Below are positions 31,504-53,218 of a stretch of 64,000 nucleotides of DNA, piece after piece. Origin of the DNA: Amphiura filiformis (Eukaryota > Echinodermata > Ophiuroidea > Amphilepidida > Amphiuridae); contig NC_092642.1 of the NCBI RefSeq assembly GCF_039555335.1, positions 14,394,243 through 14,458,242 of the forward strand, read 5' to 3'. The notes beneath the pieces were generated by a model. That model was not told the origin of the DNA, searched no databases, and saw nothing but the letters and a program-made list of their open reading frames with translations. The number at the start of each line of letters is the position of its first letter. Within the stretch, counting starts at the first letter, position 1. Position numbers and translations under genes: made by a program.

Positions 31504-32324
31504 TTACTTTGGCACATTTGGAGGGCTAACATCATCCTTACAGGGATAATCAATTCCCTCAGAGGAACTAAGGACCGTTTCCTCACTATGATGGAAACCT
31601 GCATCGTCAGCAGGATATGGCGTAGACTCTTGATCTATTATAGGATAAGACTGATCCCCTTGACTTTGTAAGGTCACACCCTCTGAATCAGGAGGAAGAT
31701 TTGTTACTTTCACAGAATGAAGCTCGATTCCCTTATTTGTTGGGTAGGCGGTTTCGTATGACGGATTTAGGTATCGTGATGCCGAAGGGACTGGCTCTCC
31801 AGGTGCTCGTTGAATGTTTGCTACTGGCTCTGCTGCCGCTGGTTGTGGGTTTGTTTCACCTGTTTGAGGAGCTGTGCCTTCAGCGGATGGCATTACACTC
31901 TTAACAGATTGAGGAAATGTTCCCTTGTAGTTTGGAGGGCAAGCTGCATCAATAACTGGAGGATACAGCTCCGTAGTAGAGGGAGGAACATTTGCATCAG
32001 TTGGACGATATACCCCAATGATATTTGGAGGATACAAACCTCCAGCAGAGGGAGTAACAATTGCATCAGTTGGAGGATATGCTCCGTACGATCCTACTGC
32101 ATTGGGCGGATACACCTCTTTGGGTTGAGTGAGATTAGGAGCATCCTGTTGTATTGGATACGCTGCATCCTTATTGGTAGTAAACGTGTAGTATGCATAG
32201 CGTGGTGCAAAAAATAAGGCTCCATATCTGTAATTTTTGCAATGTTTTCCATAAATCACGTTCCTTGAACCAATGTCACCGAAAGGGAATTCATATCCTG
32301 GTACTGGCAGACTGGGCTGAGATG
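31504..32324 (-). CDS. Gene A exon 7 (proline/tyrosine-rich tail and stop)
   Basis: 821 bp to a TAA at 31504-31506; acceptor CATCTTACAG. It encodes about 272 residues: PGYEFPFGDIG, then repeated YPP-containing segments (VYPPNAVGS, AYPPTDAIV, LYPPNIIG), then PPNY, then Ser/Thr/Glu-rich sequence. A strong antisense open frame is only a shadow. Compared with gene B it lacks 12 residues near the C-terminus. Confidence 0.88.
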
Positions 32325-35300
32325 CTGTAAGATGAAGAGTAAATGATACTGTTATCTCGAAAACTAGATTTTGCATATATGCGGGCATTATGGTGTATGT
32401 GAGAGTGGTGGGTATATGAAATGGTCTTACTTACGATGACTTGCGCATGACAACACGATCTCGTACACCGATTTTAAATAGTATTCCCGGTATTATCACA
32501 ATGACAAATTCAACCAAGTCCTTGTGACCGTCACGTGCATGGAGCTATTAAAGATGGAGAGGCAATAGATTATGTAACGCATTGTTCACTTGTGCCGATT
32601 TGAAATCTGACAAGCTATTCATCGAAAGGTACCTTTTGTTTGGGACAAAGGGCTTCCGCCATTAAATCGGTAAGCTGACCCGACAGTGTAGTAACGCTTT
32701 ACCTAGCAGGCTACTGTCAATAAGTGATCAAACGAAAGTCGCGTGAAAGCGCTTACTGGAACGAAAAGTACCTATTGTTACCATAAAACCCAAGGGTGTG
32801 ATTGAGTAGCCGTAAGCACAAAAGGCACACATTAGCCGCTGATGTACAGTTCGTTGTCACCCCACTGACTTTAGGTGCTTAATTTAAATAAATTGAATGC
32901 GCTTGTTGAATGATTACACATCAAGGCTGCCATGTCTGCATGTCTATAGTACTAGAGATAATGGTAATAGCTAAGTATACATGGAACATATAATAAGTAT
33001 ACCGGTATAGGCCTATATAAAAGTTGTTTTGCAAATTGACATTTTATTTTATTTTAAGAAGGAGAATGTCATAAACAGTGGCGTACTGAAGGGGGCAGCT
33101 CTTCTGTGAGAGGTCTTGGGAGGGGACGAGGGAGGAAGAGGTGGAGGAGGGGATATGAAGAATGGGAGGGGGACTGGAGGAAGAGGGAAAGAGGAAGAAA
33201 TGAAGAGAAATAAATATATAGAAGTAAATAAATAGAAAGGTAAGGAAAATAATAGGAATGAGAGGGGACAAAAAGTAAGAGGGGATGGGGAATGGAAGGG
33301 AGATAAGAAGAGGAAGTGATACTTTAGCAAGGAAAGAATAAGTACAGAGAAAGGAAAAGAAAGCAATGACAAGCAAATGTAGGCCTTATAATAATTATTA
33401 TAGAAAATAAACACAGCCCCCCACATAGGCCTAACACTAACAGCACTATAGGCAGCCATTCGATGATGTCAATGCCTTTATGCGTTACGTATTTTAAACG
33501 CCTAGTCAGATGTATTTTACACCTGCCAAGCACAAGTCACCCAATTTCGAAAATTGGACGTTGAATGTACACTCTCATGAATATTGATTGGCAACATTTT
33601 CCAATATGTCAGCGTTCAAATCGGACACAATAGAGCAATAGACCATTCAGTGCGTTGGTCTCGTGTGACTGCTCATCCCGAGAAAAACCTTGAGGATCTA
33701 TTGCCTTTGGATTTGACATTGCGATCTCCCCATAGCGCTTTAAATGTATTCATCCCCCAAACGGAATAATCGTGGGGTCCAATTCTAGCCAATAACGACC
33801 GATAATATGAATGGGAGTGATGACTGACACTTGTGTAACGTCTGATCCCTGCCGAAATACGCATACGATACTCTGTTGCGGCGTACATTAGCATATTAAT
33901 GAGATAATTTCATTGTCATTTTAAAACTGTACAGGTCGCTATCTACACTCTTCAAAAGAATTAAAGGATCAGATGAATATATCAGCATTTTTGAAAACAT
34001 GGGATTTGATGGTAATGTTATCGATAATTGTGCTTCATCTTTTATTACATCACTTGTTCCCTAAGTTGTAGACAAAATTCACTCATTACAAATATCCGCT
34101 ATCACCCACATCTTGAGGGGAGGGGGAAAAATTGAAGCTAAAATTTCGATTTTGAAGCCATTTTTCAAACGTCGCACACCGACACCGCCTGGCTAATAAT
34201 TATTTGGTGGAGCAGAGACACTAAAATGAATACACGGGATCGATACACGTGAATTGCTATGCACGATTTTGATATCAGACGAAAATCTTCCGATACTGGG
34301 TTAGAAATTGATGAATATCTCCCGCAAATGAATTTTTCTCAAGAAACCATACACTTGAAAATACGTGTTGAACAGATATGATAGTCGCTAGAATGCGCTT
34401 TGAAAATTGGCCGTGCGCTTTGAACTCAAAATTTGACCATTTTATATTGCGTTGGTCCTGTTCTGGACTACAGCGTGCAGCGTGTAGTACAGCTGCACTC
34501 ACTGTAGGCAGTATAAAAGTCGATGACCATTGACCTCAATGGGGTATACAAGCTTATTCACGCACAACCAAGATCGATTACCCGGCTATTGTGAGTAGCC
34601 TTAGTTATGTCCCTCGACTAATTATTAGTTTTAAAGAGCTTTAAAGGTTTGAACCAAATGGCTAATCGTGGCTGTGGATTCAGCCTACCATGGCTATTCC
34701 TGCCATGAAGATATAGGGTCGATGACACTGTGCGTCGCCACGGTTAAGGTCAAGTCACATATTGAGATGGGTTTGTGTACATGATGTATGACGTCACATT
34801 AGTGGGTATAAGATGCCCTCAATGTATCCCAGGGGTGGGGAAAGTCATTAATGTAACCGCACAAAAGATGATCTCCCGGGCCCCCTTCTCACATATCTGA
34901 GGGTAGGGGACATAATTGAGCTCCCTTAATAGTGCAACGTAATGCATAAATGAATACTCTATATGTTCTGTACCTTTCCCCACCCCGGGGATACATTGAG
35001 GGAATCTTATACCCACTAATGTGACGTATAGACACTATGAAAGTTTGACGCTGATAATCACACTGAAAACCATTTTCAGCGTTACTCCAGCCATTTCCAT
35101 TTTTACTCTGGGTATTTTCAGCGTGCATGGCTATAATTGTCTAGGGATTATTTTTTTAACAAAAACCTGGCCCAATACATTTCAGTGTGATTTGGACCAT
35201 TTCAGTGGGATTAATGAATGGCCTCTCATTGTGAGAAGTGTTGCGGTCAATTTTCAATCTGATAACAAAAGAACTCTTTTCAGTGCTATTTCAGTGGTAT

Positions 35301-38300: not shown

Positions 38301-41300
38301 GAGAAGTGCAAGGTTACATACTTGAGATAACTATGTTTTTATTCTTTATAATTCAGAGTGAAAATAAAATTTGATATCGGAGGTTTGATTTCACATATTA
38401 AACGCACCCAGGCGTTTCCTACCAGCCCAGCGACGACAGCCCAACACATTTCTTATAGCCTGACGAGTTAGGGCCTACTCCGATTGCAGAACGATAGACC
38501 TAAAGCAAATGACGGGTGACGGCAATCATGATGTCAACTCACACACCTGTGTTAATTTACAGACATCTTTTCAATTATTGTGCATGGCCACGCCGCCTAT
38601 AATTTTACCTGTACCAATTTCATAGTGATTTTAAGTATTTCACGACTGCTGTTATTTTCTACCATTCCATTCACCAAAATTGTCTCCCCTGGTACATATC
38701 CACTCTTGTCTGTCTGCGCAGAAGCTTTAATTGGTCCTGTTGCGCAACATAGACAACAAACGGTCTTCTCGTCTTCAGACTTTGAAGGCGCGACCTGTAT
38801 TATAGAAGACAAACAGTTGTATGCTGTGAGGTATGCGCAAATAATATGTATATATATTATTTTATGGTTATACTTATAGTTAATGTTTTTAAAACGTTTT
38901 CATGACCTTAATATAACCCAACATTTAATGTTATTAAAACGTTTTTATCACAACCAAAAACCCAAAATATAACCTGTTTAAAACGTTTTAAAAACATTTT
39001 GTGTTTGCTTGGTATGGTGTTAATTAATCATGTTACATCGCTACTTCTACAGGAAATATCGAGCATAAAATTAAAGTTCATACCATGTCTGGTTCGGTGT
39101 TTAGATTTAACCCAGGCTCTAGAATGAAACATCTTCGTGTCGTCTGATCAAATACATATCCTGGCTTGTCAATTTTAACTCGCACTTGATATCGTACATG
39201 TCCGTACTTTGATTCATATGAAGGTGGTAGTATTTTGTCTATTGGAATGTCAAAGGTGAATGGAAATCTGTGTTCTCCTTCTTCCAAATGGGACTTTCCC
39301 TCGATATCTTGTGAGAAAAGTTACAATGAATATATATCAGTGTCATTGTAGGCAGTGCCGACAGGTGGTGTTGTTGAAGAAAGTCCCCACCCCCTAGGGG
39401 TGGCAACGAAGCGATCTATGTCAAGAAAGAAGAACCTTCACCCGCGGTCCTTCACTTTACATGGGATGCGGCCTTCGCTATAATTTGGTAGGGGCCTACA
39501 ATTCTGTAATCAAAAACATTCCTAAGAACCTTTGGCAACTACATCTTATCACAAGTCAATGACCAATTGGGGGCAGATCAAATAGTGGGTCTGAATATGC
39601 ACCAAGGTGCGTGCGATACCGTCCCGGGGGATACCGTAGCTAATCTAATAAAAGGGAGTCCAGTTGACTAGTCATGATTCTATTTTGATACTGACTTTAA
39701 AAAAAATCACCACTGTATCGGGCAGTGTCACTTACGTATGGTTCCACCTGTTCTAGATTTGAGAGGTAGGCCCTATATTAAAGTTCCCCTCCGGGCTCTG
39801 TAATGAGAGCTTACAACTCTCATGGATTAATACGTTGAGTAAAATGAGTATAATTATTTGAAAACATACCTGTTCCCATTACGACCAATTTTTCTTCGAA
39901 ATACTTTTCTGCATTTCCATACCACACCGTTCGTTGATCTTCTCCGCTTCCTTCTTGTTCCTTCCATTCTGTTCTGCACTTGCCTCTGCATTTTATCTGC
40001 AATTCTGTGTGCAAAAATTAGTAATTTGATGTTAAAATGGAAGAGCTGGTACATATATAAAAACATTTCTACATAGGCCTATTATTTATTATTAATATTA
40101 TTACCAGAGTTCTCATATCAAATTTAGGTACTTATTAGTAGTGAAGTTTCGCAACTATAACTGGCTGGTTGTTATACTTGTTGACTGATCGAGCTGTATA
40201 CCAGTACTAGCACTTGCTGTTAGATAAGCTGATTCTGATTGTATGACTGCTGAATGCATGACTGAGAAAATAAGCTGTGCCCCCCTCATTGTTCATAGCG
40301 TGTTCGTTGTCCTATCTAATTTACTTGCTGAGGTATTGTTGATTTCGCATGTAATGACTCTTAATGTACAACTCTATGGACCCGGGGGGGGGGGGGCCCT
40401 ATAATGTCAAGAGGGGTATCAGGCGCGTCCGAGGACTCTCAAAAAGCACCCTAAACAAGTATTTCCGAGACTGAAATTTCCCCCCTAAACAAGTATAAGT
40501 TGCACGTGCTACCCTAAACAAGTAGTTGTCTTTTCCCCAACCCTAAACAAGTAATTGATGCAATTATTACCCCTAAACAAGTAAACGCACAGAACCCAGG
40601 CGGCGAGTGGCATGATAGGGCTAGCAATTTGTGACAAGCCGTCTGAATTTTGAGCCATACAAGTTTACGTGGTGCTAAAGCTTACCTCAAAGTTCATGCA
40701 GTATGTCCAATATTTTCAATATTTTTGTGCCAATAATTTCCCTTTTTGGATCACAGGTCCAACCTTTTATTGAAATATTGTATAATTTATTCTTTGGGAT
40801 TGGCATGATTGGGATGTACCCATTTCTCCACATATCCAAGAGAATTTTGAACTGCAAGTCCAACGCAAATTACGACCATGGCGATTGCAAACCACACATG
40901 AAGTTGGAAGAAGACGGCAAACACGGCCAGTTTCGTCTCGATTTAAAACATCCTAGAGCATTAATTATCATACTGGATTTAGTGGTAAACCCAACCAAAA
41001 TCCTGAAACTCATTGATTTATATTTTAAGAAAGCCAAAATAGTTCCAAATTATTCAATCGTTGTGGTTGTGTTTGTAAATACCCCGGTAAAATTTCACAC
41101 ATGTCAAAAGTTCATTGACACAGCTTGTTTACAAACCTAGAAGTTCGTGGTTGCTTTGTTGCTCCTTTAGACCATATTCCGATCAACCAAATTTTCTGGG
41201 CTGGAAGCCACCAAGACTATGAATATTAATGAGTTTAAAGAGGTTCGGCCAATCGGAAATCCTCGTATATTTTTCCTCATAATTTATCGACTCCACAGTT

Positions 41301-44300
41301 AAGAAAAAGCATGCTGATTGGTTGTATATTCTGAACAAGTTGTGACCTCGTCCGGGGACCTCGTGTTTAGTAGAACTTTTAGTATGCTAGCTGGGCCAGT
41401 ATAGGGATCTGTCATCTCTGACAGCTAAAAGATGGCTTTTAACTGCTTTTGGGGTGTAGGAAGAAGACACTTTCCTTTCACTTTTCATGAATGAAGGAGA
41501 AAGCACAAAATCCCAAACTTGGCAAAACTACCCTAAGTACGTAAGAGCTCCAAAAACATACCCTTTTACACCAATTTTACATGAATTTGATACCCTATTC
41601 ACGTTACGCACGTAACGTACTGTGGCGGAAACTATCTGGTAGCGAGCGTCTAAGGCAACCTGTGATATAACGTGGGCGTGCGGCCAATCCGCACAGTCTA
41701 TGAATACTACTAGTCACACTAATGAGTCAGACGAAGGAGTCGGATATATCATTGGTCTCATCATTTATTAGGGTTCTGGGCTGATCCAAGTGATCGGCTG
41801 GGAGCGGCAGTAGTGGTTATTGATGCAGAGAGAGAGTTATGTCTTGACCAACCTGCCTCGACGGTCGCAGGATACGGAAGAGCCAAGAATGATCGGCGCA
41901 CCGGCTTATATACCCAAGGTATATCACGTAACCTGAAATAACTGAAGGGCGCCATCTCTCTTCTGAATCCATTTCCGCTACACACCTCCCTCCTCACACC
42001 GATCCGTCCCGGATCGTACAGAGTCGGGCCCGGGCGGGAAAGTGTGCGGTGATTGTTTTTCAGAGCTGATCAAATCACACGCAACTGAATCGTTCTGACT
42101 CAGGAAGGATCGATCACTTACGCCTACTCGGAGCGGGGATCACCAAAAGAGCCAGACAACGACATGCAAGAGCATGCGGGAGGATACGAACATGGAACGA
42201 GTCAGCCATGATCGTGCATTACCCTCACCGGTGCTCATACACATTGCTCTCAGATTCAATCAGTGCTCCGCCGGGTTCAAAATCCAGAGTAAATTATGTT
42301 TCCTTATAAACTATCATCTTTATATTAAAAGATATTCTTCAACACTTTATAACATATAAAATAAATGGGGAGAATTAACTGAATTTTCCAAAATATCTCC
42401 AACAAGTAATTTGGCATATCCAAAACATATTATCATCAATTTTAAAATTACTTGTTGCTATGCTTTGTGATATTGAATTTTTTAAACAAAGCAGTTCTAG
42501 ATAACTTCACAGCATGTATTTTATATGCTGGTAACCTTTATGACATTATTTAGAAATCCGGAGTCACCTTATAAGAACTGTATCATTGCTCCGGTACAAA
42601 GCATTATCGCTGGTTATTAATACCAATGATCATGATCATAAAAATTGTTTTACTGCCACGATTACATGTGTATTTACGCAATAATAGAAGTAACCATTTA
42701 CTCCTTCACGGAGCCATCACATCAAAGAAAGAGCCGGCCAGTGATGAGCAAGAACACAGGAGGATTCATCATAGATCGTACATCTATGACGGCTAACGAT
42801 CCTCGCTAGTGTACATACCACTCACCGGTAGACTCCCCCTCCGATCCGACGAATACCCATCCGGAGCAAACAATGTATCCTATTATCATTTAAAAGCAAT
42901 CATAAAAATTATACAAAATTAACCTGATTAGTTGTTCAAACAAAATGCATGGCCATGCTCCTATAAGTAATTTCCAAAATAGCACAACATAAAAAACACT
43001 GTACATTGTAACTTCTATACAATCATAATAAGCCATTCAGTATAAGGTTATCATAACATGCTATATACATCTTTGCCCTGTTTTAAACATGCTAAAATAT
43101 TTCTCGTACGCATACATTATAACGATGCTATGTAACTGACTGACTCCGAAATTCCGGAGTTTGTTTTTGTACCAATTATTTCAATGATCACGGATTATTA
43201 GAACATTGTAAAATTACATAATGTTATTGATAAGGAAGGTGGAGATGGGGATGAAAAAATGTATGTAGTGATATGTGGACGGATGATAAATGAGATGAAT
43301 GGAATGGACAAATGGAAATGAACAATTTATATATATCAGCGGCACTAAATTATGACATGAATTACTGTAATACATAATTTTGGGAGCTCTAGATGCATGG
43401 TTTCAGTTCAAAGTTTTACTCAAAAGTATACTCTCTGGTGATGGTCTCCGTAATTCGCACCAGTTTTCCACGGCGCCCTCCAACATCTGCAAGATGACTC
43501 ATTGGGAGAAGTCCTGAGGCTCCGGGGGCTCCCGGTACCTCCCTTGGCTGCTCCGTAGTAGTAGTAGTAGTAGCTGTATTACTAGTAGAAGTGGCGGATG
43601 CCGGAGTCTTGGACTTACGCGCTCTCTTCTTTGGTGACGTCCCCATTTCACTCATACCGTCAGATTGTGCTGACTGTGCTTGGCTGGCGGCCTGATTCTG
43701 CAGAGATTCTGAAGAAATAGTTACTGCGGGAGTTACTGGTATTTCCGCCATCTCAATCTCTTCCACTTCTTCTATATCCGCCTCCGGATGCTTTGCTGTG
43801 TAATGTACTCTCAGATCCGAGCGTCTCGAGAACAACCGTGCCGGGCTTAACGGGCAAGCATATCTGTACGTTACCGGCCCATGGAGGTTGCGCTGATGCC
43901 GTGAGAGGTTGCGTCTATGGGCGAACCTCCGGTCACATTGTGGGCATTGTATTTGGTTAGGTGCCATCGCCTCTCGCCGGGGTGAATACGTCGCCAGCGT
44001 TCCATGTGGCCTGTAGTCAGGATTTACTCGAGCTGTATGCTTTGTGCGGACCATCTGTGTTTTACTTGTGGACTGGAAATATCGTACGGCACGTCTGACA
44101 CCCAAGAAGCAACTGAGTTCAAAACATCGTGGCGTCTCAATATATTTACTTACAGAGTGACGTCACACTCTTGATGCACGCCCTCTATCAGAATAGGGAT
44201 TCACAGCATATCTCGGAGCCACTGAGTTATGCGCCGGATTTCCGGAGCGTAAAATAATTTGAGCGCCGGAGCATATGAGTCATTAATATCTTGGAGTAAC

Positions 44301-47300
44301 TGTGCGCCGGATTTCCGGAGCTGAATACATTTGAGCGTCGGAGCCTGAAATTCACATTTTGTTTAATTTTTCAACCAGTTTCTTAATTGTTCACCTTCGT
44401 ATGGTTTGAGTCTGTCAAAGTGAACAACTTTGGGCTTCGACTGTGGCGATTTCTGTATTCTGTACACAACATCAGATAACTTAGTTGTAACTAAGTAGGG
44501 TCCATCCCACTTGAATTGGAGCTTTGGACATCGTCCTTTCTTCCTGACTTCCTGATGTAGCCATACAAAAGACTCTACTTGAATAGGTTGTGTTATGATA
44601 CCTCTGTCATAGTTCCTTTTCTGTCTCTTCGCTGCTTGTTGTAGGTTTTCTCTAGCTCTGTTGTGTACAGCTCTTAAGTTGTTTCGCATTTCTTGAGCAT
44701 AGTCCGTTTTCAACACTCTATCTGTTTCTGCCTCGACCGGAGTTGATGATAAATCAATCGGGAGTTCCATCTCCATTCTATACAACATAGCATGTGGTGT
44801 TTCAGAGGTTGATTCCTGCACGGAGCTTCTGTATGCCATAAGAGCGAAAGGTAAAACTTCTTCCCAATCCTGTTGATGCTTATGTGGATCCAGCAGGACT
44901 GCAATCGTATTCAGCATAGTTCTGTTGAATCGCTCTATGAAACCATCTGACTTGGGGTTCAGTGGAGTAGTCCGTGTTTTATCTATTCCAAGCAATGAAC
45001 ATACCTCTGCCATGACTTTGCTTTCAAAGTTTCTCCCTTGGTCACTGTGAAGAATTCTCGGACATCCGTGCCGATATATCCACTCATGTGTTAACTTATT
45101 GGCACAGGTGACTGCTTCCTGATCCGGTATAGGATATGCGTCCACCCACTTGGAAAAGTAGTCTCCGACAACAAGAATGTAACGATTACCTGTCGGAGTT
45201 ATGTGAAGGGGACCAAGGATATCCATGGCTATTCTCTGTCCCGGATGTCCTGCTATGTCTTGTTGTAGCTTGGCTTTTCTTCTTGTAGAAGGTGATTTCC
45301 GTTTGGCACAAATATCACATTTTCGGATCCAAGAACGAATGTCACTGCTAACTCCAAACCAGTAGAATCTCTCGTTCAGCTTGTTCCTGGTTTTATTTAC
45401 TCCCAAATGCGCTGCTGTTTTGGAGTTGTGCAATTCTTCAAGCACAGTCTCTTTGTACTTCTCTGGCATAATTAACTGCCACTTTATGACTTTACCATCA
45501 TTAGACTCCCATCGTCGATACAGTTGACCTTCTTTCAGCTCTTTTCGGTCCCATTTTAGATAATAGACCTTAGCAGCTTTTGACAATGGTGATACTACTG
45601 TATACTCCGGTTTCTTGTTTAATTCCTTGGCCGTCCAAAGCCATGACAAATCGGAATCATTGATCTGCGCATTTTTCATTTCTTCATTCGTCCATTTTGG
45701 TGCAGGACATATGGCTCTTACTTTTCTTGTTTGGTTTACCCGACTGTCTGTTAATTCTACTGTTCCGGAGCTGTTTTTACAAACGGATGCTGTTCCATGC
45801 TTCTGCGTATTTGGAACTGCTGAGCTTTCTACTTGATCTGAGTCATTACAGCTGGCTGAAACAGATCGCTCGGTAGCACTAAAGTGATCCGTTTGTTCAC
45901 TTATATTCGTCGGAGCAGCTTTACTGGATGTCTGTTCCTTTGGTACTATCCTCGGACTTGCTCCGGAATGGCTCCCATTGCTTGTGTTAGTCGAGTCATG
46001 ATCACCGTATTGCTGCGGGTGATGGTTGTCCTCTTGTCGTCCTTCTCCGGAGTTCGGAGCGCTATTTTGCTCCGGGGGAAATTGGCAAGATTTATCCGAC
46101 ATTATAATGTCTCTCTTTGGCTCCGGCTCCTCCTCTATTGGAGGAGTGGTTTTGCTCTCCGAGTCGCTCCTATTACATTGAGAGCAAGGTTTTCTGGATA
46201 GAGAATCGGCGTTTTGGTGGCTCTTGTATGTCGATGTATGATTTCATAGTCGTATTCTCCAAGTATCTGTAGCCACCTAGCCACTTGACCCTCCGGATTT
46301 CGAAAGTTGATAAGCCAACGGAGTGATCCGTGGTCAGTGCGGATCGTAAAGTGTCTGCCATATAAGTACGGTCTGAAGTACCGAACAAAGAAGACTACTG
46401 CCAGTAGCTCTCTTCGTGTGACACAGTAATTCCTTTGAGCTCTCGTAAGCGTTCTGCTGGCATAAGCAATAACTTTCTCCTGACCGTCCTGTTCTTGGGA
46501 GAGCACAGCTCCTATCCCGTATGCACTAGCGTCCGTGTCAAGAGTGAATTGTCCGGAGTATGTAGGATATGCTAAAACAGGGCTTGTTGTTAAGCACTGC
46601 TTCAATGCAAGGAAAGCCTCTTCGCAACTTTGTGTCCAATTGAATGCGATGTTCTTCTGTGTCAAGCGGTTTAGTGGTCTGGCAATATCACAGAAGCTCT
46701 TCACATACCTTCTGTAATAAGATGCTAAGCCGAGGAAGGCACGCACATCTTTGAGGCATTTTGGAGTTTCCCATTCCTGGATAACTCGGATCTTCTCCGG
46801 ATCTGTAGCAATACCATCTCTTGACACGACGTGTCCAAGGTACAGCACACTCTTCTGGAATAACACACATTTCTTAGGCTTTAGTTTCAGATTGGCTTGT
46901 TTGAGTTTTTGGAACACTAATCTGTTTAACTCTTCTTCTATTGTCTTGCCGAAAACTATCACATCGTCTAAGTAGATCAGAAGACTTTCCCATTGAAGTC
47001 CTGCCATTATATTTTCCATGAGCCTTTCAAAAGTCGATGGAGCATTACATAACCCGAAGAGCATAACTGTCCATTGGTATAGTCCTCCCCGCACTACAAA
47101 GGCTGACTTTTCCTTAGCTTCTTGATCTAACTCCACTTGCCAATATCCGGAGGCCAGGTCTAGTGTTGAAAACCACTGTGCTCCGGATAATGATTCTAAT
47201 GTTTCTTCAATCCGGGGAATCGGATAAGAGTCTGTAACAGTTACCTCATTCAACAATCTATAATCGGAGCAGAATCTCCGGGAGCCATCTTTCTTTGTGA

Positions 47301-50300
47301 CTAAGACAATCGGAGAGGCCCAGGGGCTCTCGGATGGCTCAATTATCCCTCTCTTCAACATGTCTTTAACTTGCTTGTCAGCTTCTGCTTGCATAGCGGG
47401 TGCGAGTCGTCTCGGTTTTTGTCGGATTGGCGGAGCATTACCAGTGTTTATCCGATGTTTGACAATGCCGGTTCTCCCAAGATCACCATCTCCGGTTGAA
47501 AATACATCTTGATATTCCGTCAGCAAATCCGCAACTCCTGCGTGGTACTCTTTTGGTAATTCCTGTACGCTCGCTTCATACAACGTCTGCAGGTGCTCTG
47601 GTACATTCTTCTCCGACTTTTGTTTATTTATTTCTTGGTCTATCTTGTTCACAGTCTCCCAACCTACTACAGGGCTTACTGTTCCAATTGCTGTATTCTT
47701 CTTTACTGTTAGGTTTGACAGGGTTGGATTGAATACTCTGACGGGTATGTAATCAGGTTTTGTTGTATCCAAGTCTACAACCACTCTCGCCACCACAGCT
47801 CCGGCTTCTTTAAGTTTACTGCTCCCTGGTTCTAGGATTCCGAGTCCTTCAATTCCCGGAGTCTTATTAATTTTTCCAGGTATGAGCATCTCATGCCCCG
47901 GAGGAATTGTTATATTCTGACGGAGGGTGACTTTGGCACAAAATGTACGTGTACTCGATGTCTTAACGTTGCATTGCACAACCTTGTCTCCGAATCTCAA
48001 CTGCTCCTTATATGGATCAATGGTGCATTTTGACATATACATGAAATCCATACCCAACATAGCGTCGTTTGTTATTTCGGCCACTACTACTGGCGTGAAC
48101 ATAGAAGCGGGTCCAATGTTGACGTTCATTGATGCCCATCTTATAGACTTTAGAGGACTTCCATCTGCTTGTTCTGCTGCATCTTTCATGTGAAAAAGAG
48201 CAGGCCTTGAGTCAACTGGAATACTGTTATACATCTGGACGGAAATAATAGTGTCTGTAGTCCCCGTGTCCACCAAGTATTCTACTGAGCAATAGGCTAT
48301 GTGTCCTTCTACAACTAGAGAGCGACCACGTTCTACATTTTCAGATGTTGGGTTTATTGACGGTTTTTGCTGATTCGTAGTCGCATTTCTGTTTACTTTT
48401 GGTTTTCCTGAGCCCACGCTACCGATTTCGACCCTTCCGGGGCTCCTAGGTTGGGCCGAAAATCGTTTCCCGGATGATTCCATCCTCCTCTCGAGCTGCG
48501 AAACATTTGAGGACAGCTTGCCTTATAATGATCCAATGCTCCACACCTGTAGCAACCTCTTCCTCTGCCTGGGTCTTGTCTACCACTTCCTCGTCGCCAT
48601 CCTCTCCCTCTGCCGTAGTTAGGAGCTTGTGGGGCTTCTGCCGCTTGTTCTTTCTCAGTAGACTCCGACTGCTTGCTCGACTCCGTTTTTGACGCCTTCT
48701 CTGCCACGGTCTTCAACAAACCAATGACTTCCCTCAACTGATCCTCCAATACTCTATCAGTTGGCTCTACACTTTTCACAAACTTTGCAGGTTGTTTTTG
48801 CTTTTCGGTTGTCAAAAACGCTTCTGTCTCCAATGCAGTCTGTAATGCTGCTTCCATAGATGTAGGGCGGGAGAGGTGCACCGCTGATCGTATCTCCCTA
48901 TCTCGCATGTTACCCATGAAATGGTCTCGTGCTATCCGGTTCCTGGCTTCTTCCGCCATGCCGACGTAAGCATTATCTGTTAGTTTTCTAACAGCTTGTG
49001 CAAAATCTTGCAGACTTTCTTGTTGCTGTTGTTGGCGACCACGAAGCTGTGCCAAGTATAGTTCTGCTTGGCCGGAGAACGTGATTTCTAAGCGCTTAAC
49101 CAACTCCTGATAAGTAATTGTTCTCCACTCATCCTGCTGTCGAATTACACCTCTGGCTCGACCACGAAGGCTCATAAATAATTGCTGTGCCTTTTGGCTG
49201 TCTGTCCATCCGTTCCAAGTGGCGACAGACTCAAATTGGCTAAGGTATTCCTGTAGAGGCACGTCTCCTTTGAATGCTTCGGGCGTAATTTGTTTCTGCT
49301 TAGGCCGCTCCATTCGGCTCCGGAATTTATCCATTCCTTTTACACAATCTTCTCGCCTTAACCTCCATGGTCCGCTGCTGTGATGTGGCTCCTCTTCTTC
49401 GGAGTCGACAGATTCTGTATCCGACATTTCTTCTTTGACTCTTCTGATGTTGCCTTTATGTCGTTCTATGCTGACATTACCCGGGGTCATATCACCTCCA
49501 TCCTTCCTTCGGACCTCTGAGCTGACTACTTGATGTGATGTCGGAGCCCGTTTCTTATATTTCTTATGACTGTCGGATGGTACCTGACCCGTTAGCATTT
49601 GACGGAGCTCACTACTTTCTTGTTTCAAATTCTCCAACTCCAACTTCATTTGTTCTACCTCCGCGTCCTGATGGTCTCCGACTTGGGATCTTTGTCCATA
49701 ATGAACACTTGCCGATGCATATGGAACCGCTGGAGTTTCATAACTTCGCGTCAGCTGCTCTTCCTGCATAGATTTGTTGATCTGCATCGGCTCCCGGATA
49801 AACACATCTGGGTCGGATGCCGTTGCTCTTCCGTACCCCGGTGGCGTTTCAAATTCATGAACAATTCTTGATTCCATCATAACGCTCACATCTTCCATAG
49901 GGCTGCACGACGCATCTTTTTGTGGCCTTTCATGCCTTTTGTGGCACGATTTGTCCAACTGTCCTTGGTTGCGTTTGTTTGGCATATTGTTCAGGAGAAT
50001 CGTTTGCATCTCCTGAAATTAGCGTTGCTCCTGCTCTTCTCCCGGAGTTGATGCTCTTGTATACTCCACGTGGTCAGCCTCATCTGAGCCACGAGCTGCA
50101 ACATGCCTCTCCCCTCCGGAGACATTGACCGTCTCCCCGTACTGCTGCTGGGGATTCCTTTCAGCAGAAGACACTGTTTCTGAGCAGAACTCTGGCGGTG
50201 GCTCAATCATTGGTTGGCTTAAATCACTTGCTTTTTGTTTCTCAGTTAATTTTGTCCGTAAGCGCTTAATTTCATCAATGAATATCTGCCTCTCGTCTTC

Positions 50301-53218
50301 ACCATTCACTCTCAGTAAGTTGATCTCCTCTTGTAAATCCAAACTCCTTTTCGCTGCTTCCTTTGCTTCCAACTCCAACTGCTTATCACGCTCCACCTGG
50401 CTGTGGAAATCCTCCATCCAATCTTGATCATCGTCGAAGTTGGACGCCATTCTCTCTGCTCCTCCTACAATCCCTGAGATGTTAAAACTAGTCCAGTGTC
50501 ACAGAAATCCCACCGCTGGCACCAATGTGGCGGAAACTATCTGGTAGCGAGCGTCTAAGGCAACCTGTGATATAACGTGGGCGTGCGGCCAATCCGCACA
50601 GTCTATGAATACTACTAGTCACACTAATGAGTCAGACGAAGGAGTCGGATATATCATTGGTCTCATCATTTATTAGGGTTCTGGGCTGATCCAAGTGATC
50701 GGCTGGGAGCGGCAGTAGTGTTTATTGATGCATAGAGTTAGAGTTATGTCTTGACCAACCTGCCTCGACGGTCGCAGGATATGGAAGAGCCAAGAATGAT
50801 CGGCGCACCGGCGTATTATATGCCCAAGGTATATCACGTGACCTGAAATAACTGAAGGGCGCCATCTCTCTTCTGAATCCATTTCCGCTACAGTACCCTA
50901 GTCTGAAAAAATACCCTTTTTACGTGAATTTACGGACGCGCCTGATACCCCCCTTCACCATTACAGTGCCCCCCCCCGGGTCTATGGCGTAGGCAAACCT
51001 AACTGGTGTGTTGAAGTCATGGAGACCCCAAGCCAATATCTCTCAGAAATGTTGTCCAAGGACATATTTTCAACATACCTGAAGTTGATAGTGGGGCATA
51101 ATGTCTGACATTGGTTTTCAGGCGGGTCAAAATGTACAAAAAAGTACAATTGGGGTTTTGCATGGGTAGTATCTCAGCTAATAGTATTCTAATAGGCTCA
51201 ATATGGGATAAGAGTAATGTCCCACCAAAGGGCTTTGACTGACCAAAAAATGGACACTAAAATTATTTTTACTTTTAGAGTTCTGACCCCCCGAAGTTGG
51301 TCCTGGATGGATGAAGTTGCATTTTGAGGGCCCTATATCTTTTTAAGTAAAGGACTTGGACGTTTGCTGATGGCAGATATGAATTCTACACAAATAAGTA
51401 CCCCAGGATACACATTTTTAAAAGTTGTATGGGTTCCCTTTATACATTCATGGCCTTCCAAACATCGTCTTTCGCTTTGCGACACATTTTTTACGCTGAC
51501 CCCCCTAAATTTCAACTTGCTACCACGGGAAAACGAAATAGAGTATGAAGCTCAAAGTTTCAGGATTTTAATTTCTCACCAATATCTAGCACCACACAGA
51601 AAAAGAAAAAAATTGAAGAGGTGCTGCGGTGCACATCCCTGGAGTTGACATGGATTGGCTCTGTATATAGTACTGGATACGGCTCAAGAAGAAGCAATCA
51701 GCCAGTAAGGTCATGAAACGTTACTACTAATTGTGAGTACCTGGATTTGATATGAGAACTCTAGTGATATTTATATCGACAATCCTGATGATCTCTTCAA
51801 TGATTTCTACATATGTTTTGTGTACATCACGATCCATCATCAGTGGCGTAGCCAGCCTTGTCAGAGGGTGTGTAAAAGGGTAGGGGTAGTGCAAGGGGCA
51901 GGGCAACTTTCAAGGGAGGCAAAATTTTCAAGAATGGACTAAAAGTACAAAAAAGGCAAAAGAATCTTAAATATCAGGGCGACCAGCATCCGGGGTTAGG
52001 GAGAGGGGGGCAAGACTTCTCACAGGAGCAGCTGCCCCTTGCCCCTCAACTTGACTACACCACCACTGTCCATCATGTCGCGGCGGAGTCATAGTTACAT
52101 TTGATTGATTTTATGCTTACATCATGCTAAGTATAGATGTATAAGAGGCCCACACAATTTTTAAAATATTGTAGGATTGGCCGATCGACGCTTATATAAA
52201 CGCGTTTTGAAGTCCATCGGGGCTGTGTGTTTGGCCCCGCGATCTTCACCATGCATTCGAGCCATGCACACTACTCAACTTGGAGACATCATCAGTACTC
52301 ACACAGTGGTAGACTATGCCATAGTTGATTTTTTATAAATAAAAATATATTATTAATCATAATGAACGCATTCAGTTGAACTCGAAATTATACTGATATT
52401 TATTACATCAAAATACTAGTATAAAATGGTTATGAAAAAGTTTATATAATTATATTTGTGACAGTAAAAGTAAAGTATACGTAGGCTTATATTATTGAAT
52501 GCAACATATCATAATGGCATAACTATAATGGCACTTCAATACTGAACAATTCTAATTGTTTTAGAATCTGCCGGTTTATTATCCGAGTTAAAAATCAAGC
52601 TAACAAACAGAGGGAGTAGGGTGACTGAAAAGATCAGATGTGAAAATCTATCAATTGTGCATAATTAAATCAGAGTTTTAAGCTTAAATACAATATCCAG
52701 AGTATGCACAATGGGCAAGTGGACTACGGGGTAGTCTAACACAGTGGCGGTACTACGGGAGGGGGGGCAAGGGGGATTTTGTTTCTTTTTCTTCCCCCAA
52801 TTCCCCCCCACACTTTAGAGGCCAAACACCCAAAATTACGTAAATGTCTACTTTTTGCGGCAATTTTGCCCAAAATTGGTCGATTTTGCCCCCGCACCTG
52901 AAATTCACTTTGACCCTCCCCATGCCCCTGGTGCAGCCACTGTACTCACAGTGTAAATCAAATGACGTATGCAGGTGACAAACATCTTTATCTAATTCTG
53001 AGTAAATCTGATAAAGCCTCTACGGCTGTGTCTAAATTGAACTTACTGCGGATATGTTCAATTGGATCTGAGTTTGGTCGAATCACTACTTTCACATATC
53101 CTTGCACGGAATCTCCTGGTCTATACACCGTGTCATTAGGCTTATCGAATTCCACATTGAAACTTTGAATCTTGTCGTCCTCTCTTTCGGCATGAGATTT
53201 TTCGATGGTAGCTGCCAT
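31504..53218 (-). CDS. Gene A: alpha-arrestin (arrestin domain-containing, ARRDC-type), complete, 7 exons
   Basis: Predicted 623-aa alpha-arrestin, an adaptor that couples membrane cargo to NEDD4-family ubiquitin ligases in endocytic sorting (family knowledge). Coding exons, 5' to 3': 53218-53047, 40004-39870, 39307-39084, 38794-38609, 38283-38086, 36028-35893, 32324-31504. All introns are GT-AG, phases match at every join, and total coding length is 1872 nt with the stop. The arrestin N domain spans about residues 17-165 and the arrestin C domain about 187-335 (SGYVPGE, MVENNSSREI, LPITIGTVPL). A cysteine cluster, CCLCC, links them. The tail (about 351-623) is Pro/Tyr-rich with repeated YPP units and one PPNY (about 480-483), a WW-domain ligand. 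It is much longer than usual ARRDC tails. The start is the first ATG after an in-frame TAG at 53228-53230. Intron 1 (13 kb) carries nested transposons. No search was run to choose among ARRDC2/3/4-like orthologues. Confidence 0.88.
33060..33320 (+). repeat. Purine-rich (GGA/GAA) low-complexity tract in gene A intron 6
   Basis: About 260 bp that are almost all purine on the plus strand. It creates long pyrimidine-rich shadow frames on the minus strand that are not genes. Confidence 0.6.
33590..33930 (-). repeat. Intron 6 block shared by genes A and B
   Basis: This block (landmarks GTGTGACTGCTCA, TTTGACATTGCGA, AATAACGACCGATAATATGA, GTACATTAGCATATTAATGAG) matches 58,815-59,390 in gene B intron 6. 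Gene B carries an extra 316 bp at 58941-59256. It shows that the duplication included introns. Confidence 0.75.
34791..35027. mobile_element. MITE with ACGTCACATTAGTGGG ends (gene A intron 6)
   Basis: 237 bp; TIRs of about 52 bp (ACGTCACATTAGTGGGTATA, AGAT.CCCTCAATGTATCCC, GGGGTGGGGAAAG) with very few mismatches. The TSD is not clear. Nearly identical arms suggest a recent insertion. Confidence 0.65.
35759..35830 (+). repeat. GT/GGGTGT low-complexity tract (gene A intron 6)
   Basis: GTGGGGGTGTGT-type repeat next to exon 6. The corresponding intron position of gene B lacks it, so it expanded after duplication or contracted in gene B. Confidence 0.6.
35893..36028 (-). CDS. Gene A exon 6
   Basis: 136 bp; acceptor GTTTCCACAG, donor ACTA/GTATGT. 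End of arrestin C: DVSGTPFDLELKLPITIG then TVPL, followed by the start of the tail. Confidence 0.88.
36610..37430 (+). pseudogene. 5'-truncated LINE: reverse-transcriptase C-terminus and 3' UTR (gene A intron 5)
   Basis: From about 36615 to the TAA at 37023-37025 one open frame shows the C-terminal signature of non-LTR reverse transcriptases: IERLQNRAGRAI, WKPL, YQCIAGFVPKYM, HNTRGSAHDN, then FLFRGAKAWNSLDHKLK. The 3' untranslated part ends in GTGCGTAGCGCACTATAAATC and a T tract at about 37408-37427. It is inserted in the orientation opposite to gene A and is absent from gene B intron 5. I place it in the Jockey/CR1/L2 group broadly. Confidence 0.72.
38086..38283 (-). CDS. Gene A exon 5
   Basis: 198 bp (66 codons, phase 0); acceptor TTTACCTATAG, donor GTAGAG/GTAAAT. 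Mid arrestin C: KKVMSEQIKDGCEENSR, then a hydrophobic strand with PCCPPLLKGC and LEYYVEV across the junction. Confidence 0.87.
38609..38794 (-). CDS. Gene A exon 4
   Basis: 186 bp (62 codons, phase 0); acceptor TATAATACAG, donor GTACAG/GTAAAA. It encodes the inter-domain cysteine cluster and the first arrestin C strands (GPIKASAQTDKSGYVPGE, then ILVNGMVENNSSREI). An apparent ATG just upstream lies in the intron. Confidence 0.88.
38880..39013 (+). mobile_element. Fragment of the AAAACGTTTT / GTGTTTGCT MITE family (gene A intron 3)
   Basis: AACGTTTTAAAAACATTTTGTGTTTGCTTGG ends like the right terminus of the 7432-8082 element (landmark GTGTTTGCTTGG). The left terminus is missing or degraded. 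Confidence 0.55.
39084..39307 (-). CDS. Gene A exon 3
   Basis: 224 bp; acceptor TTTTCTCACAAG, donor ACATG/GTATGA. It holds the conserved arrestin N core: GEHRFPFTFDIP, PPSYESKYGHVRYQV and the FDQTTRRCFILEP strand. The matching exon of gene B is beyond the window. Confidence 0.88.
39870..40004 (-). CDS. Gene A exon 2
   Basis: 135 bp; acceptor TTTTGCACACAG, donor ACAG/GTATGT. It encodes the arrestin N strand IKCRGKCRTEWKE, with the Trp typical of ARRDC proteins, followed by an acidic loop. It joins exon 1 across the 13-kb intron with phase 1 on both sides. Confidence 0.85.
41621..41982 (-). repeat. 3' LTR of the gypsy element
   Basis: 362 bp, same ends as the 5' LTR and roughly 98% alike by eye. 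Here the CACGTG is changed to CACGTA, one AATAAA is changed to AATAAC, and the TATA-like motif reads TATATAAG. Similar LTRs imply a recent insertion. Confidence 0.92.
41983..41997 (-). promoter_or_regulatory. Polypurine tract
   Basis: GTGAGGAGGGAGGTG on the minus strand directly abuts the 3' LTR, as required for plus-strand DNA priming in LTR elements. Confidence 0.8.
41998..43415 (-). other. Gypsy 3' untranslated region
   Basis: About 1.4 kb between the accessory gene and the polypurine tract with no open frame of note. It is GC-richer near the LTR (GATCCGTCCCGGATCG, inverted CCGGA/TCCGG words) and AT-rich elsewhere. It may carry packaging or transport signals, but none was recognised. Confidence 0.6.
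43416..44054 (-). CDS. Accessory ORF: histone H3-tail-like N-terminus plus C2H2 zinc finger
   Basis: 212 aa from the only ATG near the front of the frame (44054-44052); the frame is open further upstream but has no ATG there. It begins MVRTKHTAR, matching histone H3 at R2, T3, K4, T6, A7 and R8 once Met is removed, with a later LATYSPR resembling H3 LATKAAR at nearly the same distance. Then comes a canonical C2H2 finger, CPQCDRRFAHRRNLSRHQRNLH (C-X2-C-X12-H-X4-H, shown in two parts: CPQCDRRF and HRRNLSRHQRNLH). A second finger-like block keeps H..H but lacks one Cys. An acidic patch, a basic KKRARKSKT stretch (possible nuclear signal), a Thr run and a conserved-looking C-terminus follow. It occupies the env position. 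The function is inferred: a nuclear, chromatin-directed accessory factor. Confidence 0.75.
   Translation of the reverse strand: MVRTKHTARVNPDYRPHGTLATYSPRREAMAPNQIQCPQCDRRFAHRRNLSRHQRNLHGPVTYRYACPLSPARLFSRRSDLRVHYTAKHPEADIEEVEEIEMAEIPVTPAVTISSESLQNQAASQAQSAQSDGMSEMGTSPKKRARKSKTPASATSTSNTATTTTTTEQPREVPGAPGASGLLPMSHLADVGGRRGKLVRITETITREYTFE
44055..44362 (-). promoter_or_regulatory. Leader between integrase and the accessory gene
   Basis: About 300 bp between pol and the zinc-finger ATG. The phrase GCGCCGGATTTCCGGAGC occurs twice on the plus strand (near 44230 and 44302), each followed by GAGCG.CGGAGC. Paired palindromes here could be a subgenomic promoter, splice-control site or zinc-finger binding site (inference). 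A GTAAGT on the minus strand at about 44148-44153 is a possible splice donor. Confidence 0.35.
44363..46102 (-). CDS. pol: pol part 2: integrase
   Basis: 579 codons from the first ATG, although the frame is open upstream to the frameshift at about 46,225. Residues 1-170 are a Ser/Asn/Gln-rich linker. The HHCC zinc module has H225, H232, C262 and C265. The catalytic core has D294 (AMDILGPL), D354 (HSDQGRNFES) and E390 (GFIERFNR) with the D35E spacing. A GPY/F-type C-terminus follows (WDGPYLVTTKLSDVVYRI, then HFDRLKPY). All catalytic residues are intact. No chromodomain is seen after it. Confidence 0.9.
   Translation of the reverse strand: MSDKSCQFPPEQNSAPNSGEGRQEDNHHPQQYGDHDSTNTSNGSHSGASPRIVPKEQTSSKAAPTNISEQTDHFSATERSVSASCNDSDQVESSAVPNTQKHGTASVCKNSSGTVELTDSRVNQTRKVRAICPAPKWTNEEMKNAQINDSDLSWLWTAKELNKKPEYTVVSPLSKAAKVYYLKWDRKELKEGQLYRRWESNDGKVIKWQLIMPEKYKETVLEELHNSKTAAHLGVNKTRNKLNERFYWFGVSSDIRSWIRKCDICAKRKSPSTRRKAKLQQDIAGHPGQRIAMDILGPLHITPTGNRYILVVGDYFSKWVDAYPIPDQEAVTCANKLTHEWIYRHGCPRILHSDQGRNFESKVMAEVCSLLGIDKTRTTPLNPKSDGFIERFNRTMLNTIAVLLDPHKHQQDWEEVLPFALMAYRSSVQESTSETPHAMLYRMEMELPIDLSSTPVEAETDRVLKTDYAQEMRNNLRAVHNRARENLQQAAKRQKRNYDRGIITQPIQVESFVWLHQEVRKKGRCPKLQFKWDGPYLVTTKLSDVVYRIQKSPQSKPKVVHFDRLKPYEGEQLRNWLKN
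46135..48483 (-). CDS. pol: pol part 1: protease, reverse transcriptase, RNase H
   Basis: 782 codons. The aspartic protease shows VDTGTTDTI (DTG at 72-74) and AMLGMDF. The reverse transcriptase runs from about residue 345 (IEPSESPWASPIVLVTKKDG, FSTLDLASGYWQ) to YLDD at 504-507 (catalytic Asp pair) and FLGLASYYRRYV near 583. RNase H has TLDTDASAYGIGAVL (649-651) and IRTDHGSLRWL (717). The final 30 or so codons are out of frame with the conserved RNase H end; the expected motif continues in the frame of pol part 2, so a one-base frameshift lies near 46,220-46,235. I do not reconstruct it. Confidence 0.9.
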   Translation of the reverse strand: MESSGKRFSAQPRSPGRVEIGSVGSGKPKVNRNATTNQQKPSINPTSENVERGRSLVVEGHIAYCSVEYLVDTGTTDTIISVQMYNSIPVDSRPALFHMKDAAEQADGSPLKSIRWASMNVNIGPASMFTPVVVAEITNDAMLGMDFMYMSKCTIDPYKEQLRFGDKVVQCNVKTSSTRTFCAKVTLRQNITIPPGHEMLIPGKINKTPGIEGLGILEPGSSKLKEAGAVVARVVVDLDTTKPDYIPVRVFNPTLSNLTVKKNTAIGTVSPVVGWETVNKIDQEINKQKSEKNVPEHLQTLYEASVQELPKEYHAGVADLLTEYQDVFSTGDGDLGRTGIVKHRINTGNAPPIRQKPRRLAPAMQAEADKQVKDMLKRGIIEPSESPWASPIVLVTKKDGSRRFCSDYRLLNEVTVTDSYPIPRIEETLESLSGAQWFSTLDLASGYWQVELDQEAKEKSAFVVRGGLYQWTVMLFGLCNAPSTFERLMENIMAGLQWESLLIYLDDVIVFGKTIEEELNRLVFQKLKQANLKLKPKKCVLFQKSVLYLGHVVSRDGIATDPEKIRVIQEWETPKCLKDVRAFLGLASYYRRYVKSFCDIARPLNRLTQKNIAFNWTQSCEEAFLALKQCLTTSPVLAYPTYSGQFTLDTDASAYGIGAVLSQEQDGQEKVIAYASRTLTRAQRNYCVTRRELLAVVFFVRYFRPYLYGRHFTIRTDHGSLRWLINFRNPEGQVARWLQILGEYDYEIIHRHTRATKTPILYPENLALNVIGATRRAKPLLQ
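48393..50009 (-). CDS. gag: gag, main segment with CCHC zinc knuckle
   Basis: 538 codons. A basic N-terminal third and an acidic patch (SEEEEPH-like) are followed by a retrotransposon-gag (capsid) region around residues 240-390, with YLSQFESVATWNGW, QLFMSLRGRARGV and FAQAVRKLTDNAY. Then come a Lys/Glu linker, an RG-rich stretch and the knuckle CYRCGALDHYKASC (about 486-499; C-X2-C-X4-H-X4-C). It forms the particle and binds RNA (family knowledge). The 3' end overlaps pol by 91 nt in the -1 relation typical of programmed frameshifting. Confidence 0.85.
   Translation of the reverse strand: MQTILLNNMPNKRNQGQLDKSCHKRHERPQKDASCSPMEDVSVMMESRIVHEFETPPGYGRATASDPDVFIREPMQINKSMQEEQLTRSYETPAVPYASASVHYGQRSQVGDHQDAEVEQMKLELENLKQESSELRQMLTGQVPSDSHKKYKKRAPTSHQVVSSEVRRKDGGDMTPGNVSIERHKGNIRRVKEEMSDTESVDSEEEEPHHSSGPWRLRREDCVKGMDKFRSRMERPKQKQITPEAFKGDVPLQEYLSQFESVATWNGWTDSQKAQQLFMSLRGRARGVIRQQDEWRTITYQELVKRLEITFSGQAELYLAQLRGRQQQQQESLQDFAQAVRKLTDNAYVGMAEEARNRIARDHFMGNMRDREIRSAVHLSRPTSMEAALQTALETEAFLTTEKQKQPAKFVKSVEPTDRVLEDQLREVIGLLKTVAEKASKTESSKQSESTEKEQAAEAPQAPNYGRGRGWRRGSGRQDPGRGRGCYRCGALDHYKASCPQMFRSSRGGWNHPGNDFRPNLGAPEGSKSVAWAQENQK
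50019..50450 (-). CDS. gag: gag, N-terminal segment (ends at an in-frame stop)
   Basis: 143 codons starting about 75 nt after the 5' LTR. It is highly charged and helical: residues about 14-75 (QVERDKQLELEAKEAAKRSL and onward) look like a coiled coil, then a Pro/Glu-rich linker. It ends in TAA at 50019-50021. The next open frame, at 50009, is in the same reading frame, so the two are probably one gag gene separated by a single stop codon. Whether the stop is decay or a read-through device cannot be told from one copy. Confidence 0.7.
   Translation of the reverse strand: MASNFDDDQDWMEDFHSQVERDKQLELEAKEAAKRSLDLQEEINLLRVNGEDERQIFIDEIKRLRTKLTEKQKASDLSQPMIEPPPEFCSETVSSAERNPQQQYGETVNVSGGERHVAARGSDEADHVEYTRASTPGEEQEQR
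50507..50524 (-). promoter_or_regulatory. Primer-binding site
   Basis: It starts one base after the 5' LTR and reads TGGTGCCAGCGGTGGGAT on the minus strand, complementary to a tRNA 3' end finishing in CCA. It resembles tRNA-Leu 3' ends (CCCACCGCTG), but I could not verify the primer tRNA. Confidence 0.7.
50526..50892 (-). repeat. 5' LTR of the gypsy element
   Basis: 367 bp bounded by TG..CA (TGTAGCGGAAAT..TTCCGCCACA on the minus strand). On that strand it has a palindromic E-box-like TCACGTGA, a TATA-like GCATATAATACG, and two AATAAA signals. About eight differences and small indels separate it from the other LTR. Confidence 0.92.
50983..51840. other. Gene A intron 1, unassigned part
   Basis: A domain-less open frame of 94 codons at 51364-51645 is treated as chance. 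No repeat was recognised. Confidence 0.3.
51841..52068. mobile_element. hAT-type MITE with perfect 8-bp TSD (gene A intron 1)
   Basis: The left end is CAGTGGCGTAGCCAGCC and the right end GACTACACCACCACTG. TCCATCAT is duplicated exactly at 51833-51840 and 52069-52076. 228 bp, G-rich, non-coding. Same family as 4269-4676. Confidence 0.88.
52742..52942. mobile_element. hAT-type MITE, imperfect TSD (gene A intron 1)
   Basis: The ends are CAGTGGCGGTAC and GTGCAGCCACTG (inverted with one or two mismatches). The outside octamers GTCTAACA and TACTCACA agree at five positions. 201 bp with G and C runs. It is 105 bp from exon 1 of gene A. Confidence 0.6.
53047..53218 (-). CDS. Gene A exon 1
   Basis: 57 codons plus one base. 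It opens with a short hydrophilic leader, then the first arrestin N strands (IQSFNVEFDKPN, VYRPGDSVQGYVKV). The donor is CGCA/GTAAGT. A possible 3' splice site just upstream (CACCTTAG at about 53229-53236) would put a 5' untranslated exon further right; this was not resolved. Confidence 0.85.

Follow-up and report, generated by a model that had tools for sequence, protein, structure and literature searches.

A 64,000-nucleotide stretch of the genome of the ophiuroid Amphiura filiformis (assembly GCF_039555335.1, contig NC_092642.1, positions 14,394,243 to 14,458,242 of the forward strand), hereafter the window, contains a Ty3/gypsy-type long terminal repeat (LTR) retrotransposon with an accessory open reading frame (ORF). 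The product of this ORF begins with a sequence that resembles the tail of histone H3 and continues into C2H2 zinc fingers (Table 1). A first-pass annotation, made from the letters of the window, had placed the ORF in a gypsy-type element, and this is borne out by the LTR pair and by the Pfam domains in pol. These follow the Ty3/gypsy order of protease, reverse transcriptase (RT), RNase H and integrase, and a target-site repeat is also present. The two LTRs differ by five substitutions and two short indels. The putative primer-binding site looks to us complementary to the 3' end of tRNA-Leu, and a primer site of this type would presumably make the element Mag/SURL-like. The gag region has no Pfam match. 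It is split by an in-frame stop at about position 50019, and the integrase frame differs from that of RT and RNase H, so that pol is broken in this copy (46135-46243). Because of the stop in gag and the frame change between RNase H and integrase, the window copy is degraded and not autonomous; its coding stretches were analysed unrepaired.

The accessory ORF opens at its first ATG with MVRTKHTAR, as had been described. Numbered after the initiator methionine, the residues are V1 R2 T3 K4 H5 T6 A7 R8 V9, and R2, T3, K4, T6, A7 and R8 are those found at the same positions of H3. The open frame extends back to position 44162 and holds no in-frame methionine upstream of the motif; an upstream start that would bury the motif inside a longer protein is thus absent from the window copy.

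Relatives of the protein were collected in successive searches. The first sequence search returned two relatives. A profile of these gave 20 matches, of which 12 were kept as relatives, and eight were excluded as multi-finger proteins because of the Pfam domains listed for them, their low scores and their limited coverage (two of the eight were inspected). A third search, with a profile lacking the first 12 residues, gave 14 family matches and two unrelated proteins. There are 17 relatives overall, with 32-51% identity to the window protein, and 18 sequences in the alignment when the window copy is included. Fourteen relatives have the N-terminus; P0013, P0023 and P0026 begin at an internal methionine and are uninformative on the tail. 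The comparison covers relatives known as protein sequences and, of the element itself, the window copy. DNA encoding the relatives was not found in viral contigs (queries P0001, A1, A2 and the parts of the element encoding RT and integrase), nor in genome contigs (query A4) or plasmids by tblastn.

All 15 N-termini, those of the 14 relatives and of the window copy, start with M[AV]RTK. The search with the truncated profile agrees: of its 14 family matches, 11 retain the N-terminus, and each of these begins in this way; three were new and eight were already in the profile. Position by position, the H3 residue is present in four of the 15 sequences at A1, in all 15 at R2, T3 and K4, in six at Q5, in 13 at T6, in seven at A7 and in eight at R8. 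K9, the loss of which had been remarked on in the window copy, is missing from every member. Position 1 is restricted to alanine or valine, both of which permit removal of the initiator methionine. The commonest residues at positions 2-8 spell the RTKQTAR of H3, by slim margins at positions 5, 7 (where threonine occurs in six members) and 8, and P0024, which sits on a long branch, reads VRTKQTAR. Of the RTKxTAR start that the relatives were expected to keep, the RTK part is therefore universal and the full motif is confined to three members (P0001, P0009 and P0024).

Site rates, computed on a tree made without the N-terminal columns, give the same picture. They are 0.18 at R2, 0.16 at T3, 0.17 at K4 and 0.18 at T6, with 0.30 at position 1 and 0.75 at position 5, and reach the speed of the linker at positions 7 and 8 (0.94 and 1.17). 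The mean rate is 0.17 at residues 3, 4, 5 and 7 (counting methionine as 1) versus 1.12 for residues 8-34, so that the linker evolves about six times faster, and among 210 windows of three residues the slowest is RTK. The constraint proposed in the first-pass annotation for the first eight residues thus holds for V1 to K4 and for T6, and fails for A7 and R8. From the alignment, constraint is limited to [AV]RTKxT and does not extend over the whole of RTKxTAR. A comparison of the 30-residue N-terminus with PDB sequences (phmmer, E up to 10) gave no match, as expected for so short a peptide.

Pfam matches in the rest of the accessory ORF are limited to C2H2 models, and the best 60 of 72 PDB matches to the whole ORF are C2H2-finger proteins. 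The finger previously placed at about residues 35-56 is indeed present, at residues 37-58; it fits C-x2-C-x12-H-x3-5-H, scores above the Pfam cut-off and is missing from P0026. A second finger is degenerate. Of the 17 members whose sequence spans it, 15 have no second cysteine, and P0013 and P0024 keep the CPTC form. Between the tail and the first finger, a conserved block, QGExAxFEPR, is slow at A21 (0.17) and Y/F23 (0.23), as are A29 and N33 further on, and is possibly a second short binding motif. A LAT-xxx-R string in the window copy had been likened to H3. Because the same stretch in the relatives is this block, the likeness is regarded as coincidental and was dropped. In eight of the 15 members, the window copy included, the stretch from K4 to the first cysteine of the finger is free of further lysines, and the other seven have one to three. 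The C-terminal motif LxxIxETITREYxFE is present in most family members and absent from P0011 and P0025; no known counterpart was recognised.

Table 1. Features of the retrotransposon and its accessory ORF, with positions in the window. Finger residues are numbered with methionine as 1.
Feature	Position	Strand	Remarks
Ty3/gypsy-type LTR element, 9,272 bp	41621..50892	-	LTR pair, flanks, Pfam RT/RNase H/integrase
4-bp target-site repeat GTAC	41617-41620 and 50893-50896		flanks the LTR element
5' LTR, TGTAG...CCACA, 367 bp	50526..50892	-	
Putative primer-binding site	50507..50524	-	adjoins 5' LTR
gag region, two open stretches	48393..50498	-	zinc-knuckle motif CYRCGALDHYKASC visible in translation
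Protease, RT and RNase H	46135..48522	-	Pfam gag-asp_proteas, RVT_1, RT_RNaseH_2
Integrase	44363..46243	-	Pfam Integrase_H2C2, rve, Integrase_p58_C
Two-unit tandem duplication, period 72-73 bp	44230..44344		between pol and accessory ORF; rich in predicted binding word
Accessory ORF, 212 amino acids, intact	43416..44054	-	between pol and 3' LTR
H3-tail-like N-terminus (M)VRTKHTAR	44028..44054	-	
Linker block QGExAxFEPR, conserved	43977-44006	-	between tail and finger
Finger 1, C37 C40 H53 H58	43881..43946	-	Pfam zf-C2H2, E 1.1e-5
Finger 2, degenerate, C67 H84 H89, one cysteine	43788..43862	-	
Basic patch PKKRARKSK, nuclear-localisation-like	43608..43634	-	K142 rate 0.18
C-terminal motif LxxIxETITREYxFE, alternating, conserved	43419..43463	-	
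3' LTR, 362 bp	41621..41982	-	
Predicted binding sites YCGGAK, 80 matches in 63 clusters	41983..50525		entire internal region, coding and noncoding

The residues expected to read DNA are N49 (helix position +3) and R52 (+6) in finger 1, and R77 (-1) and D80 (+3) in finger 2. Their rates, 0.19-0.22, compare with 0.17-0.19 for the zinc ligands. Under the usual zinc-finger recognition code, the helix of finger 1 is predicted to read GAN and that of finger 2 NCG, so that the two together would read NCGGAN, with the core CGGA. The code agrees with the modules of a design tool, in which N+3/R+6 helices serve GAG, GAA, GAT and GAC and R-1/D+3 serves GCG (PMC5260015). A helix row in PMC9705829 matches the code only in reverse order and is not used as support.

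The second finger, and an element-wide array of the predicted binding sites, go beyond what the first-pass annotation had described. In the internal region CGGA ranks first of 136 tetramers (128 occurrences versus 47.6 in dinucleotide shuffles, z 12.6). CCGGAG likewise ranks first of 2,080 hexamers in such shuffles (34 versus 2.5), and CGGAGC and TCCGGA complete the top three. In two 8.5-kb control stretches of the window, none of these four words is among the six top words. CCGGA occurs 58 times inside the element versus 21 times in the 54.7 kb outside, and the next word with the same composition and one CpG occurs 15 times in the element. The preferred form, YCGGAK, is found 80 times in 8.5 kb inside versus 26 times in 54.7 kb outside. 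This 20-fold excess makes it more likely that the protein acts on the element's own DNA than that it targets host chromatin in general. The densest zone of YCGGAK is the gap between pol and the accessory ORF (44055-44362, seven in 308 bp). Nucleosome-like regular spacing of the sites was considered and rejected: the 63 YCGGAK clusters are spaced at random (coefficient of variation 0.92 versus 0.88, with 1350 of 2000 nulls at or below). An initial count on 40 CCGGA sites had appeared slightly regular (69/2000) and was superseded by the minimum-gap null on the 63 clusters.

The excess extends into coding sequence. When codons are shuffled synonymously, 12.4 CCGGA are expected in the coding stretches (standard deviation 3.6), versus 38 seen, a number reached in none of 500 shuffles. 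Under the same shuffles CCGGAG is the first of 2,080 hexamers in gag/pol (23 versus 3.8), and CCGGA is in excess in the RT ORF (18 versus 5.3) and in that of integrase (12 versus 4.3; 0/500 each). Markov models of order 1 and order 2 give 2.3 and 10.1 CCGGAG respectively, and none of 300 sequences from either reaches the 34 seen. The 58 CCGGA are split evenly between strands (29/29), and in the main stretches of gag, RT and integrase, which together hold 35 of the sites, all three codon phases are used. This strand balance and the use of all phases suggest that the selected target is double-stranded DNA, and not RNA or protein.

The tail is conserved, the fingers are present and the array covers the element. 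A tail under constraint is joined to a DNA reader, likewise constrained, whose predicted core is the most over-represented tetramer of its own element. The simplest reading is a protein that lines this element with H3-type tails. In the form to which we give about an even chance of being correct, a small nuclear protein recognises its own element and displays H3K4-type tails that engage or decoy H3-tail readers, with an anti-silencing effect. Here we infer the removal of methionine, the nuclear location, the binding to DNA, the tail reader and the effect. The two fingers would read NCGGAN, with a DNA preference for YCGGAK, throughout the body of the element. Once methionine is removed, the mature N-terminus would copy the first six residues of H3 as [A/V]RTKxT, offering the K4 position but never K9. 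Lined along the element, the protein would present many H3K4-type tails unable to carry H3K9 methylation, which would engage the readers and modifiers of the H3 N-terminus or keep them occupied. The element would thereby stay active or escape the maintenance of silencing. Anti-silencing, as for the plant VANC proteins considered below, is the effect that would be most useful to the element. What survives of the earlier interpretation is a retrotransposon protein, predicted to bind DNA, with an H3-like N-terminus under a strong constraint that covers the first eight residues in part.

A candidate tail reader is the PHD finger of UHRF1, for which binding of a peptide with valine at position 1 is published: it binds the VRTK peptide of PAF15 with a dissociation constant of 2.2 µM, versus 1.5 µM for H3 (PMC7060239). 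The valine of PAF15 sits among hydrophobic residues, and the changes R3A or T4D abolish binding (PMC7060239), which fits the A-or-V rule and the fixed R2 and T3 of the family. The absence of K9, and of any linker lysine in eight of 15 members, suggests display or decoy rather than a substrate for UHRF1 ubiquitylation in the manner of PAF15. It is tempting to speculate further that this gypsy-type family lines its own DNA with surrogate H3 tails that have K4 but no K9, a pseudo-histone self-marking that we propose only tentatively. If this were true, the binding sites would be written into synonymous positions of gag-pol, and the element would build its own 'active, not silenceable' signature. 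H3K4-directed readers and writers would then be jammed or recruited, including the UHRF1 route to maintenance methylation.

A number of points weigh against the proposal of a self-targeted display of H3 tails. Finger 2 is short of one cysteine, so its binding of zinc may be abnormal. The finger-1 helix is different in P0013 and P0024, with no asparagine at +3, and finger 2 has glutamine at -1 in P0006 and asparagine at +3 in P0012. The excess of CCGGA is weak in gag (5 versus 2.1, reached in 30/500 shuffles) and in its N-terminal part (3 versus 1.0, 37/500), and also in the accessory ORF (5 versus 2.8, 70/500). In the coding parts CGGAA (11 versus 15.0) and CGGAC (9 versus 10.2) show no excess; not every NCGGAN is enriched, a preference that the finger code did not predict. 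The LTRs, where the promoter is expected, hold five and four plain CGGA, no CCGGA and one YCGGAK each. An order-3 Markov model gives 22.7 CCGGAG versus the 34 seen, which 3 of 300 sequences reach; this model was fitted to the element itself, so that CCGG and CGGA are built into it. The array statistics come from one copy of the element. The finger prediction was written after the CCGGAG-rich gap had been seen, so the two are not mutually blind, and because CCGGAG had been noticed near the ORF before the prediction, the excess was tested over all words. Finally, the change K5A in PAF15 had a small effect on binding to the UHRF1 PHD finger (PMC7060239). Together with the invariant K4 of the family, this suggests that UHRF1 alone is insufficient, and that K4 itself is needed by a reader, writer or eraser acting alone or additionally.

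Several of these points are also what would be expected if the array were read by a host factor, or were due to mutation or codon bias, with the ORF product binding elsewhere and the CGGA match a matter of luck. Binding by the ORF protein is a prediction, the array is known from one copy, finger 2 is degenerate, and both the order-3 model and the lack of excess of CGGAA and CGGAC leave room for it. We consider this unlikely, since the predicted core ranks first of all tetramers, and the synonymous shuffles and strand symmetry oppose causes in codons or RNA. A tethering role in integration or in the nucleus is a minor possibility, to which we give slightly more weight: the protein would coat new element DNA at CGGA and its tail would dock on host PHD-like readers, serving the choice of insertion site or entry into chromatin. 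The array over the whole internal DNA on both strands, the H3-like tail and the basic patch would all suit this role. However, an H3-like tail should bind readers and not chromatin, and so would compete with chromatin, and the LTRs, on whose ends integrase acts, contain few YCGGAK. It is distinctly improbable that the element restrains itself, with a SNAG-like tail recruiting H3-tail enzymes of the LSD1/CoREST kind, lowering its own expression and limiting damage to the host. The H3-like N-terminus does stand before C2H2 fingers, as in SNAG proteins, and the element has predicted self-binding sites; however, membership in the SNAG domain was rejected, as alanine or valine follows methionine in 15 of 15 members and the proline of the SNAG consensus never does, and selection on single elements would usually favour escape. 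Least probable of all, in our view, is that M[AV]RTK is no H3 mimic and is kept for translation start, splicing, a nucleotide signal over the ATG or as a short basic motif. An AG stands immediately before the ATG, and in a comparison made at the protein level constraint on codons and on residues is inseparable. Such a cause would hardly fix three unlike residues while position 5 varies, keep T6 in 13 of 15 members, admit only A or V at position 1, and let the commonest residues run on to RTKQTAR.

Elsewhere in the window, two ORFs of about 300 amino acids, rich in proline and closely similar to each other, lie on the reverse strand at 31504-32430 and 57820-58707; neither matches Pfam. The same strand holds an arrestin C-domain stretch at 38597-38899, whose linkage with the proline-rich ORFs is a guess. 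Similar 56-bp minisatellite units (GATATCCAACTA...GGGCTACAAAGAACC) occur at two distant places (24298-25300 and 54934-55101), and a tandem array of 16-bp / 48-bp periodicity (TCCCACTAGGTCCATA), with about 19 units, is found at 63099-63412.

To our knowledge, little is known about active resistance of animal retrotransposons to chromatin silencing. In the accessible parts of the literature, the only cases of sequence-specific anti-silencing found in print were from plants. The accessible open-licence literature yielded no account of a retrotransposon zinc-finger ORF with an H3-like tail (subscription journals and Repbase reports lie outside this), and the word 'zinc' does not occur in the accessible part of PMC8220671. 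If the proposed display is real, the joining of an H3K4-type tail to self-recognition, with the recognised word spread across the element's own coding sequence, would amount to a counter-silencing device open to direct test. The family would also offer natural variants of an H3-tail mimic, from which it could be read that the partner demands R2, T3, K4 and mostly T6, and not Q5, A7, R8 or K9.

Parts of this arrangement are familiar from other systems. SNAG-domain proteins such as GFI1 and SNAI1 carry an N-terminal imitation of the H3 tail ahead of C2H2 fingers, as in this ORF; unlike it, they are host transcription factors, have proline after methionine and do not literally read RTKxT. Chromoviruses are Ty3/gypsy elements that make use of histone-tail recognition through a chromodomain in their integrase. 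A chromovirus reads a histone tail, whereas the element described here imitates one, and does so in a separate ORF. VANDALs, the source of the VANC proteins, are plant DNA transposons, and DPPA3/Stella, a further protein with an H3-like motif, is not known to have zinc fingers.

The VRT motif of DPPA3/Stella occupies the PHD finger of UHRF1, and in mouse this binding regulates the dissociation of UHRF1 from chromatin (PMC11187062). It differs from the present case in that the motif lies at residues 85-87 of a host protein (PMC11187062). PAF15 (PCLAF) is closer: its mature VRTK imitates the ARTK of H3 and binds the UHRF1 PHD finger (PMC7060239), and [A/V]RTK is found here in 15 of 15 members. 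However, PAF15 is a host PCNA-binding protein that is ubiquitylated on K15 and K24, whereas this protein is encoded by an element, has zinc fingers and, in eight of 15 members, has no lysine between the tail and the first finger cysteine. VANC proteins recognise short words that are enriched in the elements encoding them, and their action leads to loss of DNA methylation (PMC5735166, PMC10398659). As in Arabidopsis VANDALs, the protein here is encoded by the element, and the short word is in excess both in the encoding element and in tandem repeats, with binding in the present case predicted. The word of VANC21 is mainly noncoding and in one orientation, whereas here the word occurs in both orientations and inside coding sequence. 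The accessible portions of PMC5735166 and PMC10398659 do not mention an H3-like tail on VANC, and such a tail is present here.

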